In this document: positions 22,752 through 27,847 of the stretch, one piece after another
Position numbering within the stretch: position 1 is the first letter of the stretch
Layout: each line of letters begins with the position of its first letter
Assembly (NCBI GenBank): GCA_005882135.1
Contig: VBDR01000026.1
Location: 1-64,000 of the forward strand
Reading direction: 5' to 3'
DNA: 64,000 nt
Source: Chloroflexota bacterium
GTDB lineage: Bacteria > Chloroflexota > Dormibacteria > Dormibacterales > Dormibacteraceae
Translations under genes and position numbers: made by a program
Notes under the pieces: model-generated
The model's input: the letters and a program-made list of their open reading frames with translations, nothing else
Database searches by the model: none
Told to the model about the DNA's origin: nothing

Positions 22752-23876
22752 CTAAAGGTAACGGGTCTTGCGCGCCCGCTTGAGGGCCTCAACGACCTTG
22801 CGCACGTCTTGCGCACGCGAGCGCGGCACCACCAGCAGCGCGTCCTCGGTGTCGACGATGATCATGTCCTCGACGCCGATCGCGGCGATGAGCCGGCGGT
22901 CACCGAAGATCAGGCTCCCGGTGGTATCGACCAGCACGGCTTCCCCGTCAACCGAGTTGCCGCGCGCGTCCGCGCGCACCCGGTCACCGAGCTCTGCCCA
23001 GTTGCCGATATCCGCCCAATCAAAAGCACCCGGCACGAGCAGAAGCCGGTCGGTCTTTTCCATGACGGTCCGGTCTACAACCTCGACCGGCAGGCGGCGG
23101 TAAAGCTCGGCTGCGGTTGCCTCGTCACCGGCGTTGCGGGCGGCGACCACCTTGCGCAAAGCCGCAAGGTGTCGTGCCGCGTGCCTGGCAAGCTCCTCGA
23201 TGAAGACGTCGACCCTCCAGGAGAACCAGGCGAGGTTCCAGTAGTAGCCGCCCTCCCGCATGAACCGCTTGGCGCTTGCCGCATTCGGCTTTTCGATGAA
23301 CCGCCGCACCCGCAGCGTGCCCCGCGACACGCGGCCAGGCGCGTGGATGTAGCCGAGCCCGGTCGACGGAAATGTCGGTTTCAGACCAACCGTCACCAGG
23401 CAGCCTGTGGTGGCCGCGGCCTTGACGGCGGCGCGCACGGCCCTGGCGACCTGAGCGCTGCCGTGGACGACATGGTCCGCCGGGAGCGCGATCATCACCG
23501 CCCCAGGCATCCGCTCGTTGAGGATCAGCGAGGCCAGGCCATAGGCGTTCGTGGTGCCGCGCGCCGACGGCTCCAGGATCAGATGCGATACGTCGACCTC
23601 CGGCAGGACCGCCTCGATGATCTCGCGCTGCCTCACCTCGGTGAGCACGAAGACCTCGTCCGCGACCGCTTTCGCGCGGTCGTATGTCGCGCGAAGCAGC
23701 GTCCGGCCCCGGTCCGCGAGAGGCAGCACGTGTTTTGGCGTCGAGCTGCGCGAGCGCGGCCACAGCCGCGTGCCCGCGCCGCCGGCGGGAATCACAGCGA
23801 CAGTGGCCTCACCCCTGCCCCCTCCCCATGAATGGGGAGAGGCGATGCCTGGTTCCGGACGTCGTTGCGCCGTCAT
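22752..23876 (-). CDS. manC: Mannose-1-phosphate guanylyltransferase
   Basis: 374 aa, makes GDP-mannose. Nucleotidyltransferase motifs: [27 protein letters not shown], and FIEKP followed by [15 protein letters not shown]. It is the GT-A domain only, without the fused isomerase, which fits the separate cupin gene. ATG 23876 forms ATGA with the metK stop; the resulting N-terminus (about 27 residues, including [15 protein letters not shown]) is mostly the translation of a palindromic repeat. GTG at 23795, just before the IPAGG motif, is a serious alternative start. Confidence 0.92.
23808..23848. repeat. Dispersed palindromic repeat, copy 3, at the 5' end of manC
   Basis: CCTCCCCATGAATGGGGAGAGG hairpin unit written in parts: CCTCCCCAT, GA, ATGGGGAGAGG. 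In the manC frame it reads ASPHSWGGG, the same phase as the argC copy. Confidence 0.7.
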
Positions 23877-25012
23877 TGGACCTCTTCGGCAAGGTCCTTC
23901 GCGCGCGCGGTGGATTCCCACGGCGCGTCGATGTCCGTGCGGCCGAAATGCCCGTACACCGCCGTCTGGCGGAAGAGTGGGCGGCGCAGGTTGAGCTCCT
24001 TGATGATGCCCAGCGGGCTCAGGTCGAAGAGCTTGGAGACGGCGGTGGCGATCGTCGCCTCGGAAACACTTCCCGTGCCGAAGGTATCGACCCGAATCGC
24101 GACCGGCTTGACGACACCGATCGCGTAAGAGACCTGGACCTCACATTTGCTCGCGAGGCCTGCTGCCACGATGTTCTTGGCGACGTGCCGGGCGCCGTAC
24201 GCGCCGGCCCGATCGACCTTCGTCGGGTCCTTGCCCGAGAAGCATCCGCCGCCGTGGCGGGCATACCCGCCGTAGGTGTCGACCATGATCTTGCGGCCGG
24301 TCAGACCTGCGTCGGCGACCGGGCCGCCGATCACGAACCTCCCGGTGGGGTTGATGAACGAGCGCACCGACCCGTGGAGCAACTCGGGTGGAATCACGGC
24401 ATCGATCACGTGCTCCGCGATGTCGGAGCGCAGCTGGTCGGCCTCGACCTCGTCGTGGTGCTGCGTCGAGAGCACCACGTTCTCGACGCCGCTGGGCTTG
24501 CCGTCATCGCCATAGCGGACGGTCACCTGGACCTTGCCGTCAGGCCGCAGGTAGCTCAGGGTCTTGTTGCGGCGGACGTCGGCCAGCTTGCGGGCGAGTC
24601 GATGCGCCAGCGTGATCGGAAGCGGCATGAGCTCGGGCGTCTCATCGCAGGCGAAGCCGAACATCATCCCCGAGTCGCCGGCGCCGCCGACGTCGACGCC
24701 GTGGGCGATGTCCGGTGACTGCTCGTCGATGCTGGTCACCACACCGCACGTCTCGGCGTCGAAGCCGTATTTCGCGCGCGTGTAGCCGACCTCGCGGACC
24801 GTCTGCCGGATGATGCGCGGAATGTCGACGTAGCAGTCCGTTGTGATCTCTCCCACCACGATCACCAGGCCGGTGGTGACTATCGCCTCGCACGCGACTC
24901 GAGCCAGCGGGTCCTTGGCAAGGATCGCGTCGAGGATGGCGTCGGAGATCTGGTCGGCGAGCTTGTCCGGATGGCCTTCGGTGACTGACTCAGACGTGAA
25001 CAGTGACGACAT
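23873..25012 (-). CDS. metK: S-adenosylmethionine synthetase
   Basis: 379 aa, makes SAM from methionine and ATP. Signature sequences: [35 protein letters not shown] and [22 protein letters not shown] 25012 has AGGAGG 5 nt upstream, and this site can be paired by an upstream CCTCCT (see the leader feature). First gene of metK-manC-phosphohexomutase-cupin, with 4-nt overlaps. Confidence 0.97.
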
Positions 25013-25106
25013 GCGGTCCTCCTCTGAATCTCCCGCGCCGGCAAGGAGGGCCGCCGTATGGGCCGATCCCCAGACGCCAGGTTCATACCTCTGGGACAGG
25101 CGAATC
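25013..25106 (-). promoter_or_regulatory. Structured metK leader, candidate riboswitch
   Basis: A 94-nt leader. Minus-strand elements in order: hairpin CCCAGA (25095-25090) / TCTGGG (25074-25069) with inner GGT-ATGA-ACC; hairpin GGCC (25064-25061) / GGCC (25052-25049) whose loop exposes CATAC (25060-25056), complementary to GTATG (25088-25084) in the first loop; anti-SD GGCCCTCCT (25052-25044) pairing with AGGAGGACC (25023-25015), which contains the SD. The second hairpin and the anti-SD helix share the same GGCC, so they exclude one another. I do not recognise a known SAM class. Function inferred from position. Confidence 0.55.
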
Positions 25107-25985
25107 CTATCTCAGCGGCAGGTAGTGGATTCCGGAGTGGCGGAACAGCTTCGAGCCCCGCTGGCGCAGGAGCGAAGCCATCGCCACCCGCGACGACTCC
25201 ATCACGGATTCCAGGTGCTCCCGCTTCATCTCCCAGGTCGCGGTGGGGGCCGTGATCGGGCACAGGACGACGATCCGGCATCGCTCCCGCAGTCTTTCGT
25301 AGTCGCTGAGCATCTGGTGATGCAGCGAAAGCTGCAGCGTTCGCGCGATCAGCTCGCCAAAGCCCGCCGGTGAGGGCTCATTCTCGCCACCGGCCATCAG
25401 GCTGACGGCAAGGATCTCCCTGGCGCCATCGTCCACCGCGGTGTTGAGCGGCGTGTTGGCTACCACTCCCCCGTCGAGGTGCTCGCGGCCGTTGATGCGA
25501 ACCATCGGAAACACGCCCGGGATCGCGGTTGACGCCAGGAGGGCGGGGGTCAGGTCGCCCGAGCGGAACACCGCCGGCCTGCCGGCGTTGAGATCGGTCG
25601 CCACCACGGCCAGGGGGAGCCGCAGCTGTTCAAAGGTGGTGACCCCCATCAGGGCCTGCGCCCGATCGATGAGCCGGCGCACGTTCCGCTGCGGAAACGC
25701 GCTGAGCTGATCGCGCCGGATTCCCGACACGACCAGGCCGAGCGGGTGGGCCTGGAACACGCTCAGCGCAGGTCGCGACATCCAGACCTCGCGCAGCATC
25801 ATCGTCCCGGCGAGGGATGGATACGCGGCGATCGAAGCTCCGTTCAGGGCGCCGACGCTGGTCCCCACTACCGCCGCGGGCGCCTCGATGTTGGCCTCAA
25901 ACAGCGCCTGCAGCACCCCGACCTGGGCGGCGCCCCGCGCCCCCCCTCCGCCCAGCACCCACGTGCGCCGAGCGGGCCCAAACAT
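25107..25985 (-). CDS. Patatin-like phospholipase
   Basis: 292 aa serine acyl hydrolase of the RssA/YlbK-type patatin family. Oxyanion loop [17 protein letters not shown] at the N-terminus, nucleophile elbow GTSVG (Ser about residue 44) and catalytic Asp in [11 protein letters not shown]. No signal peptide or membrane anchor, so probably cytoplasmic. Substrate unknown; acts on acyl lipids in characterised members. It lies between ahcY and metK with a repeat copy at its 5' side. Confidence 0.9.

Positions 25986-26044: not shown

Positions 26045-27847
<1,803 letters not shown>

Follow-up and report, generated by a model that had tools for sequence, protein, structure and literature searches.

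Across one family of the Dormiibacterota, designated here f1, the regions upstream of metK share a conserved leader that, by sequence comparison, is a real and structured RNA. We consider it virtually certain that this RNA is a structured regulatory leader. It is not in Rfam 15, and it constitutes a candidate new SAM-type translational riboswitch. As a cis-regulatory element, the leader would most likely act on translation as a riboswitch sensing SAM or a closely related compound; it is the identity of metK alone that points to SAM as the ligand.

The copy analyzed in most detail comes from a genome of f1 and lies in a window of 64,000 nucleotides (contig VBDR01000026.1, positions 1 to 64,000), where the leader occupies 94 nt (25013-25106, minus strand) between metK and an upstream patatin-like gene. 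The best NCBIfam model for the latter was RssA, at 68.9 bits and under the cut-off of 272. Profile scores bear out the first-pass annotation of this DNA in its identification of the downstream gene as metK (Table 1), and metK was present in 41 of 41 genomes, the window's own included. An ahcY gene (adenosylhomocysteinase, TIGR00936) is found on the same strand at 26045-27316 (minus), approximately 1 kb upstream of metK, with the patatin-like gene alone between the two.

Conservation and distribution of the metK leader

Constraint on the leader was assessed against four-fold degenerate sites from the initial portion of metK, in 19 pairs in total with the window copy as reference. Identity of the leader to the window copy was 0.76-0.89 in the 16 nearer relatives (L002-L017), compared with 0.48-0.67 at the four-fold sites, and the three most distant relatives (L018-L020) gave values of 0.59-0.66 and 0.43-0.53, respectively. 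The higher identity of the leader indicates that it is under constraint. By eye, the leader is also kept where the upstream DNA is unlike the end of the patatin-like gene (L005, L012, L013 and L018-L020).

Following a check proposed in the first-pass annotation, a new covariance model of related metK leaders (R1, built from 20 sequences) was searched over 110 genomes of the class. R1 matched 36 of the 42 f1 genomes with E values from 1.7e-25 to 2.8e-9, and the 68 class genomes outside f1 gave no comparable match. The six misses within f1 are assemblies without the complete 5′ end of the leader-bearing metK: G006 and G093 contain C-terminal fragments only, the G017 contig begins inside metK, G015 and G095 contain only the other metK, and G107 contains none. 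All 37 copies of the motif lie directly before metK (17 by tblastn, 20 by construction); a conserved fold in the 5′ UTR, upstream of a coding region that belongs to the presumed ligand's own pathway, is characteristic of riboswitches. Comparison thus establishes both the motif and its restriction to metK. A further model, R2, gave strong matches in f1 only (23 genomes) when run over 400 genomes of the phylum, along with six further phylum genomes at E 0.0015-0.009, near chance expectation for 400 genomes. We take as chance the weak matches in G032, G038 and G071 of the class (E 0.0008-0.004) and in G116, G232, G234 and G392 of the phylum (E 0.003-0.009); metK is on another contig in six of these seven genomes, and G234 has no detectable metK.

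A named genome collection was also searched with a motif pattern. Of 27 matching stretches, 24 belonged to assemblies that bear the names Chloroflexi bacterium CF_* or UBA10874, Candidatus Dormibacteraeota or Candidatus Dormiibacterota, and kinship with these places the window's genome in Candidatus Dormiibacterota. The remaining three belonged to two Verrucomicrobia records and one Burkholderia record, with no metK among the nearby frames by eye, and one of the three was antisense to an apparent ribosomal protein L35 gene. No viral contig matched the pattern.

The position of the motif relative to a probable promoter provides a clue to its place in the transcript. In 34 of the 37 copies, a -10 box of the form TAnnnT lies upstream, its end 6-7 nt from the first conserved G; of the other three, one has the box at 10 nt and two lack it. 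At random positions of the same loci, TAnnnT occurred at this spacing in 18 of 11,100 cases. The transcript therefore most likely starts at the motif itself, a position that the comparison of copies indicates through the -10 box. In the window, the TAG of the -10 box doubles as the stop codon of the patatin-like gene.

Known RNA families did not account for the motif. Scanned against Rfam 15 at the gathering threshold, the window gave one tRNA only and 11 relative loci gave no SAM family; three leaders of the motif scanned at E <= 10 gave only chance matches below gathering scores. The search against Rfam that the first-pass annotation had also proposed accordingly matched no family, and no covariance-model match was obtained in these scans to SAM-I, SAM-II, SAM-III, SAM-IV, SAM-V, SAM-VI, SAM/SAH or SAM-Chlorobi, for all of which Rfam 15 presumably holds models. 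The motif was likewise undescribed in the riboswitch literature, as judged from titles and abstracts among the matches listed, which included few subscription papers or preprints. For SAM/SAH, SAM-Chlorobi, SAM-I-IV-variant and SAM-II long loops, Rfam accessions are given in PMC2864571.

A probable junction of P2, P3 and a short closing helix

Covariation among the copies supports a fold in which the small hairpin P2 and the long arm P3 would meet a short closing helix in a three-way junction (Table 1). In a MAFFT alignment of 20 sequences, made with no use of structure, P3, P2 and the alternative closing helix P1a together showed 20 two-sided cells against 9.0 in shuffles (reached by 0 of 500), with 88.6% of cells paired versus 45-59% when the strands were slid. 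With 37 sequences aligned to a model of the same three helices, there were 50 two-sided cells against 16.3, spread over 11 of 23 pairs (0 of 500 shuffles). The final fold, closed by P1, gave 56 against 19.7 over 14 of 24 pairs, again with 0 of 500 shuffles, when the 37 sequences were aligned to a second model. Taken alone, the window leader folds no better than its shuffles (z +1.08).

Table 1. Coordinates and basis of the features discussed; positions are those of the window unless a locus is named.
Feature	Position	Strand	Basis or remark
metK (methionine adenosyltransferase), regulated gene	23873..25012	-	ORF; TIGR01034 561.2 bits, cut-off 309.4
-10 box TAGGAT	25104..25109	-	TAnnnT before first conserved G
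Likely transcription start, first G of GUCCC	25097..25097	-	inferred from -10 spacing
P1, 5′ strand GUCC	25094..25097	-	paired cells and covariation score against shuffles
P2 hairpin AGGU-AUGA-ACCU	25079..25090	-	two-sided changes above shuffle mean
P3 base, 5′ strand	25073..25077	-	pairs with 25035-25039
P3 upper arm, 5′ strand	25061..25071	-	pairs with 25043-25052
P3 apical loop (loop 2 of the first-pass annotation)	25053..25060	-	absent in L057, L059
P3 upper arm, 3′ strand	25043..25052	-	contains the anti-SD of the first-pass annotation
Conserved GCC opposite single U (25072), asymmetric internal loop	25040..25042	-	alignment A4
P3 base, 3′ strand GGCGC	25035..25039	-	pairs with 25073-25077
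J3/1, conserved single strand GGGAGAUUCAGAGGA, P3 to P1	25020..25034	-	alignment A4
Shine-Dalgarno sequence GGAGG	25018..25022	-	sequence; 5 nt 5′ of ATG
P1, 3′ strand GGAC	25016..25019	-	GG is second half of GGAGG
f2/f4 leader copies	L107:1415-1488, L022:1410-1490, L104:2653-2732	+, +, -	13 more in alignment A5

The P3 arm is the part of the fold that comparison establishes most directly. All cells of its base (100%) are paired, with changes on one side only, and its upper arm, with two-sided changes in 9 of 11 pairs, carries most of the covariation of the fold. In two sequences of one genus, L057:783-869 (-) and L059:1501-1587 (+), the arm is shortened on both strands to a hairpin of tetraloop size, suggesting that the apical loop CACACGGU is dispensable. 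The conserved GCC, the U opposite and two adjoining G-U pairs show hardly any variation, and this internal loop of P3 is possibly an element of a ligand pocket. P2 (AGGU/ACCU) and the closing helix P1 emerge from the comparison with less weight. For P2, 8 two-sided cells were counted where shuffles gave 4.4, a count of 8 being reached by 20 of 500 shuffles, and the inner pair of P2 is unformed in 15 of 37 copies. The J3/1 strand includes the 5′ portion of the Shine-Dalgarno sequence, and its conserved unpaired stretch includes GGGAGAUUC. A pairing GAA/UUC between the P2 loop and J3/1, taken from single-sequence folds, was dropped because AUUC is constant among the copies and the P2 loop is not.

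The 5′ end of the transcript, GUCCC, has two alternative partners: GGAC, forming P1, or the GGGA of J3/1 directly 3′ of P3, forming P1a. P1 (GUCC/GGAC) takes in half of the Shine-Dalgarno sequence. P1a (UCCC/GGGA), whose 5′ strand consists of the last three letters of GUCC and the next C, was the closing helix first given by RNAalifold. We compared the two on alignments made without structure (A1), fitted to P1a (A2) and fitted to P1 (A4). The paired percentage and covariation score of P1 were reached by 19 and 18 of 500 shuffles on A1, and by 0 and 0 of 500 on both A2 and A4. The corresponding counts for P1a were 92 and 157 on A1, 5 and 141 on A2, and 165 and 497 on A4; its two-sided cells on A2 were reached by 28 of 500. 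P1a is paired in 89-91% of cells. P1 has only 1-4 two-sided cells, and with its partner slid by +3 the score was as high (0.132 against 0.091 on A1; 0.081 against 0.084 on A2). All four pairs form in 31 of 37 copies for P1, the exceptions being L018, L020, L061, L091, L092 and L093, and in 26 of 37 for P1a. Furthermore, AC follows GGAGG in 30 of 37 metK leaders versus 2 of 41 other genes from these loci, a conservation that P1 explains and P1a does not. Overall, P1 is favored over P1a as the closing helix on all three alignments, on few changes, and P1a is kept as the likely partner in an open state.

This fold differs from the one envisaged in the first-pass annotation, in which two hairpins would kiss through their loops and an anti-Shine-Dalgarno (anti-SD) segment GGCCCTCCT would cover AGGAGGACC at the ribosome site. 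The letters were read correctly for the window copy: loops GTATG (25088-25084) and CATAC (25060-25056) are complementary at 5 of 5 positions, GGCC is present at 25052-25049, and 8 of 9 anti-SD positions pair. Conservation of the kissing loop and the anti-SD was not borne out. Among 20 aligned copies, the window included, the loops match at 5/5 positions in 3, 4/5 in 4, 3/5 in 4, 2/5 in 1 and 0-1 of 5 in 8; with 374 of 500 shuffles reaching the paired percentage and 437 of 500 the covariation score, the kissing loop was rejected. The anti-SD matches at 8 of 9 positions in the window copy alone, the remaining 19 copies having 3-7 of 9. When the constructs were extended by 20 nt, it paired at P>0.4 in 4 of 37 copies (L001, L003, L009 and L052), the window's own among them. 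Both this anti-SD and a shorter CCUU/AAGG register are often paired with covariation not above shuffles, and were set aside as possible but unsupported. We regard the strong anti-SD of the window copy, whose helix is part of the predicted minimum (P 0.71), as either locally added or coincidental. Across the 37 copies, hairpin 1 (CCCAG/CUKGG) has 92.7% of its cells paired and zero two-sided changes, and 493 of 500 shuffles reach its score; it was rejected for want of covariation. Hairpin 2 proved to belong to a genuine covarying arm, P3, which is longer than had been described. Compensatory changes, whose absence the first-pass annotation named as refuting, thus fall mostly in the P3 arm and do not exceed shuffles in the kissing loop, the anti-SD and hairpin 1.

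Proposed switch and alternative explanations

In the mechanism we propose, the transcript would begin at the motif and P2 would form a core with the long arm P3. In the open form, GUCCC would pair with the GGGA after P3 (P1a), which would leave the Shine-Dalgarno sequence free; in the closed form, GUCC would pair instead with GGAC (P1), closing the three-way junction and hiding the Shine-Dalgarno site. A ligand bound at the junction would stabilize the closed form, switching metK off when SAM is plentiful. A ligand switch of this description, hiding the Shine-Dalgarno sequence in P1, is the outcome we modestly favor. Within it, hiding in P1 is taken as the conserved means of control, and we infer the direction of control and the role of GGGA as open-state partner.

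Predicted energies place the two forms close together. Forced into the closed and open forms, the 37 leaders had median energies of -28.4 and -29.0 kcal/mol, respectively. The unconstrained minimum was lower (-33.5), and for most copies the best predicted fold is therefore some other structure. The gap between the closed form and the minimum was at most 2 kcal/mol in 4 of the 37 copies and at most 5 kcal/mol in 18; in the window copy it was 8.2 kcal/mol.

The proposed architecture invites comparison with known SAM riboswitches. As described in PMC6914780, SAM-III (SMK box) and SAM-VI have three stems and one three-way junction, with the Shine-Dalgarno sequence joining P1 and P3, and in SAM-VI, studied on metK, a competing helix P0 leaves the Shine-Dalgarno sequence accessible; SAM-III is found in Firmicutes and SAM-VI in Actinobacteria. 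Judged by that account, the f1 leader would resemble both in layout, with three stems at one junction and the Shine-Dalgarno sequence between P3 and P1, and SAM-VI also in its place before metK and in a competing helix that would free the Shine-Dalgarno sequence. The likeness depends on the closing helix, as the Shine-Dalgarno sequence joins P1 and P3 if that helix is GUCC/GGAC and does not if it is P1a. The f1 leader differs from both in its lineage and in the lack of an Rfam match at E <= 10 (three leaders). Given the missing covariance-model match and a ligand that is presumed, we do not assign the motif to SAM-III/SAM-VI.

Two further families are relevant for their narrow distributions. 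The SAM/SAH riboswitch is presented in PMC2864571 as a small motif of one bacterial group immediately before metK, and the f1 leader is similar in its restricted distribution and its location. However, SAM/SAH is an H-type pseudoknot (PMC7367207), whereas the f1 motif appears to be a junction with a long arm and has no Rfam match. SAM-Chlorobi, also described in PMC2864571, is a group-restricted leader that precedes metK and ahcY; its promoters are strong, its ligand is unproven, and it showed no binding of SAM or SAH in preliminary tests. The f1 motif is likewise a group-restricted conserved metK leader, unlike SAM-Chlorobi in occurring at metK only and in having no Rfam match. SAM-Chlorobi serves as a warning, since similar support was followed by no SAM or SAH binding in preliminary tests.

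Other explanations of the f1 leader were weighed against the ligand switch. It is unlikely, though not negligibly so, that the leader serves as the binding site of a protein, such as MetK or some other regulator, rather than as a small-molecule switch. Autoregulated leaders likewise show a conserved stem-loop arm upstream of just one gene, which counts in favor of such a protein, and the metK gene is the only clue to a ligand. A protein site would leave much of the conservation outside helices, in J3/1 and the GCC/U internal loop, to be accounted for, and the different RNA at metK in sister families would need a different protein site.

The same RNA might also act with the opposite sign, a reading to which we give a rather small probability. 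A ligand, for instance methionine as an activating substrate, would then stabilize the P1a junction, free the Shine-Dalgarno sequence and turn metK on. The high pairing of P1a, its direct stacking on P3, a stability about equal to that of the closed form and a paired percentage that few shuffles reach on the alignment fitted to it (A2) are all consistent with this; yet its covariation score is readily reached by shuffles on the three alignments, and the conserved GGAC after the Shine-Dalgarno sequence is left unexplained. Furthermore, SAM synthetase leaders with known ligands are described as shut off by SAM, as exemplified by SAM-VI on metK (PMC6914780).

It seems improbable that the leader is a constitutive 5′ structure, free of switching, whose role is to protect the mRNA or to set its translation rate. 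The motif would lie at the extreme 5′ end of the transcript and its ligand is a presumed one, as such a structure would allow, but long conserved unpaired stretches (J3/1 and GCC) are unusual for a plain stabilizer, and the motif is confined to metK. Finally, the original design of kissing loops set against the GGCCCTCCT anti-SD is very improbable as the conserved mechanism: for all its agreement with the window copy, both elements fail in conservation as detailed above, and the two-helix state of hairpin 1 plus anti-SD has a median of -22.6 kcal/mol, falling below the closed form in only 3 of 37 copies. What endures of the first-pass interpretation is its designation of a candidate translational riboswitch, on the strength of a conserved structured leader, unmatched in Rfam, that could plausibly hide the ribosome-binding site.

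Other metK leaders in the class

Families f2 and f4 carry a different conserved metK leader, of approximately 60 nt and with one arm. Its lower stem, CCCCG/UGGGG, changes to UCUCG/UGAGA, its upper stem shows G-C to A-U swaps, and it contains an invariant GGACAGGAG and conserved CCGGUG(-like) internal-loop strands. Sixteen sequences (15 distinct) yielded 27 two-sided cells against 9.3, a count reached by 0 of 500 shuffles. At E <= 0.001, a covariance model of this leader (R3) matched 43 of the 110 class genomes, all of f2 or f4, and none of the 42 f1 genomes; 16 of its 44 matches were examined and all 16 lie directly before metK. Over the 400 phylum genomes, R3 matched strongly in f2 and f4 only, and four weaker matches do not adjoin metK. 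The f2/f4 leader had no match in Rfam in gathering scans of four loci or at E <= 10 on one. Searching R2 on 24 loci (f2, f4 and second metK copies) gave no match (best E 0.35), and the f2/f4 leaders are therefore not counted as members of the f1 motif.

At five f3 loci (L025-L029), metK begins, by eye, within a few bases of the apparent end of ahcY, with no room for a leader of its own. Most f1 genomes possess a second metK, 55-59% identical. In 13 of 13 genomes examined (loci L124, which is G000:C84 of the window's own genome, L113-L115, L118, L122, L123, L125-L128, L130 and L131), a TAnnnT -10 box precedes the start codon of this second gene by 8-11 nt; its mRNA would thus be leaderless, making a switch of this kind impossible there. 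The f1 genomes accordingly combine one metK copy with a leader RNA and another apparently without a 5′ UTR.

Few SAM riboswitch folds are known. We tentatively suggest, as a proposal somewhat short of even probability, that Dormiibacterota hold two unrelated and undescribed SAM-type riboswitch classes for metK: an f1 class that would conceal the Shine-Dalgarno sequence in the helix closing a three-way junction, and, in f2 and f4, a compact class with a single arm. Some SAM riboswitches came to light in the same manner, as motifs confined to one bacterial group and located before metK. Across the 110 genomes the distributions of the two leaders do not overlap, implying that one replaced the other or that each arose independently. 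If the proposal is true, a new fold together with a second one in sister families would mean that evolution readily reinvents SAM sensing by RNA, and would offer a first handle on gene regulation in a soil phylum that is uncultured.
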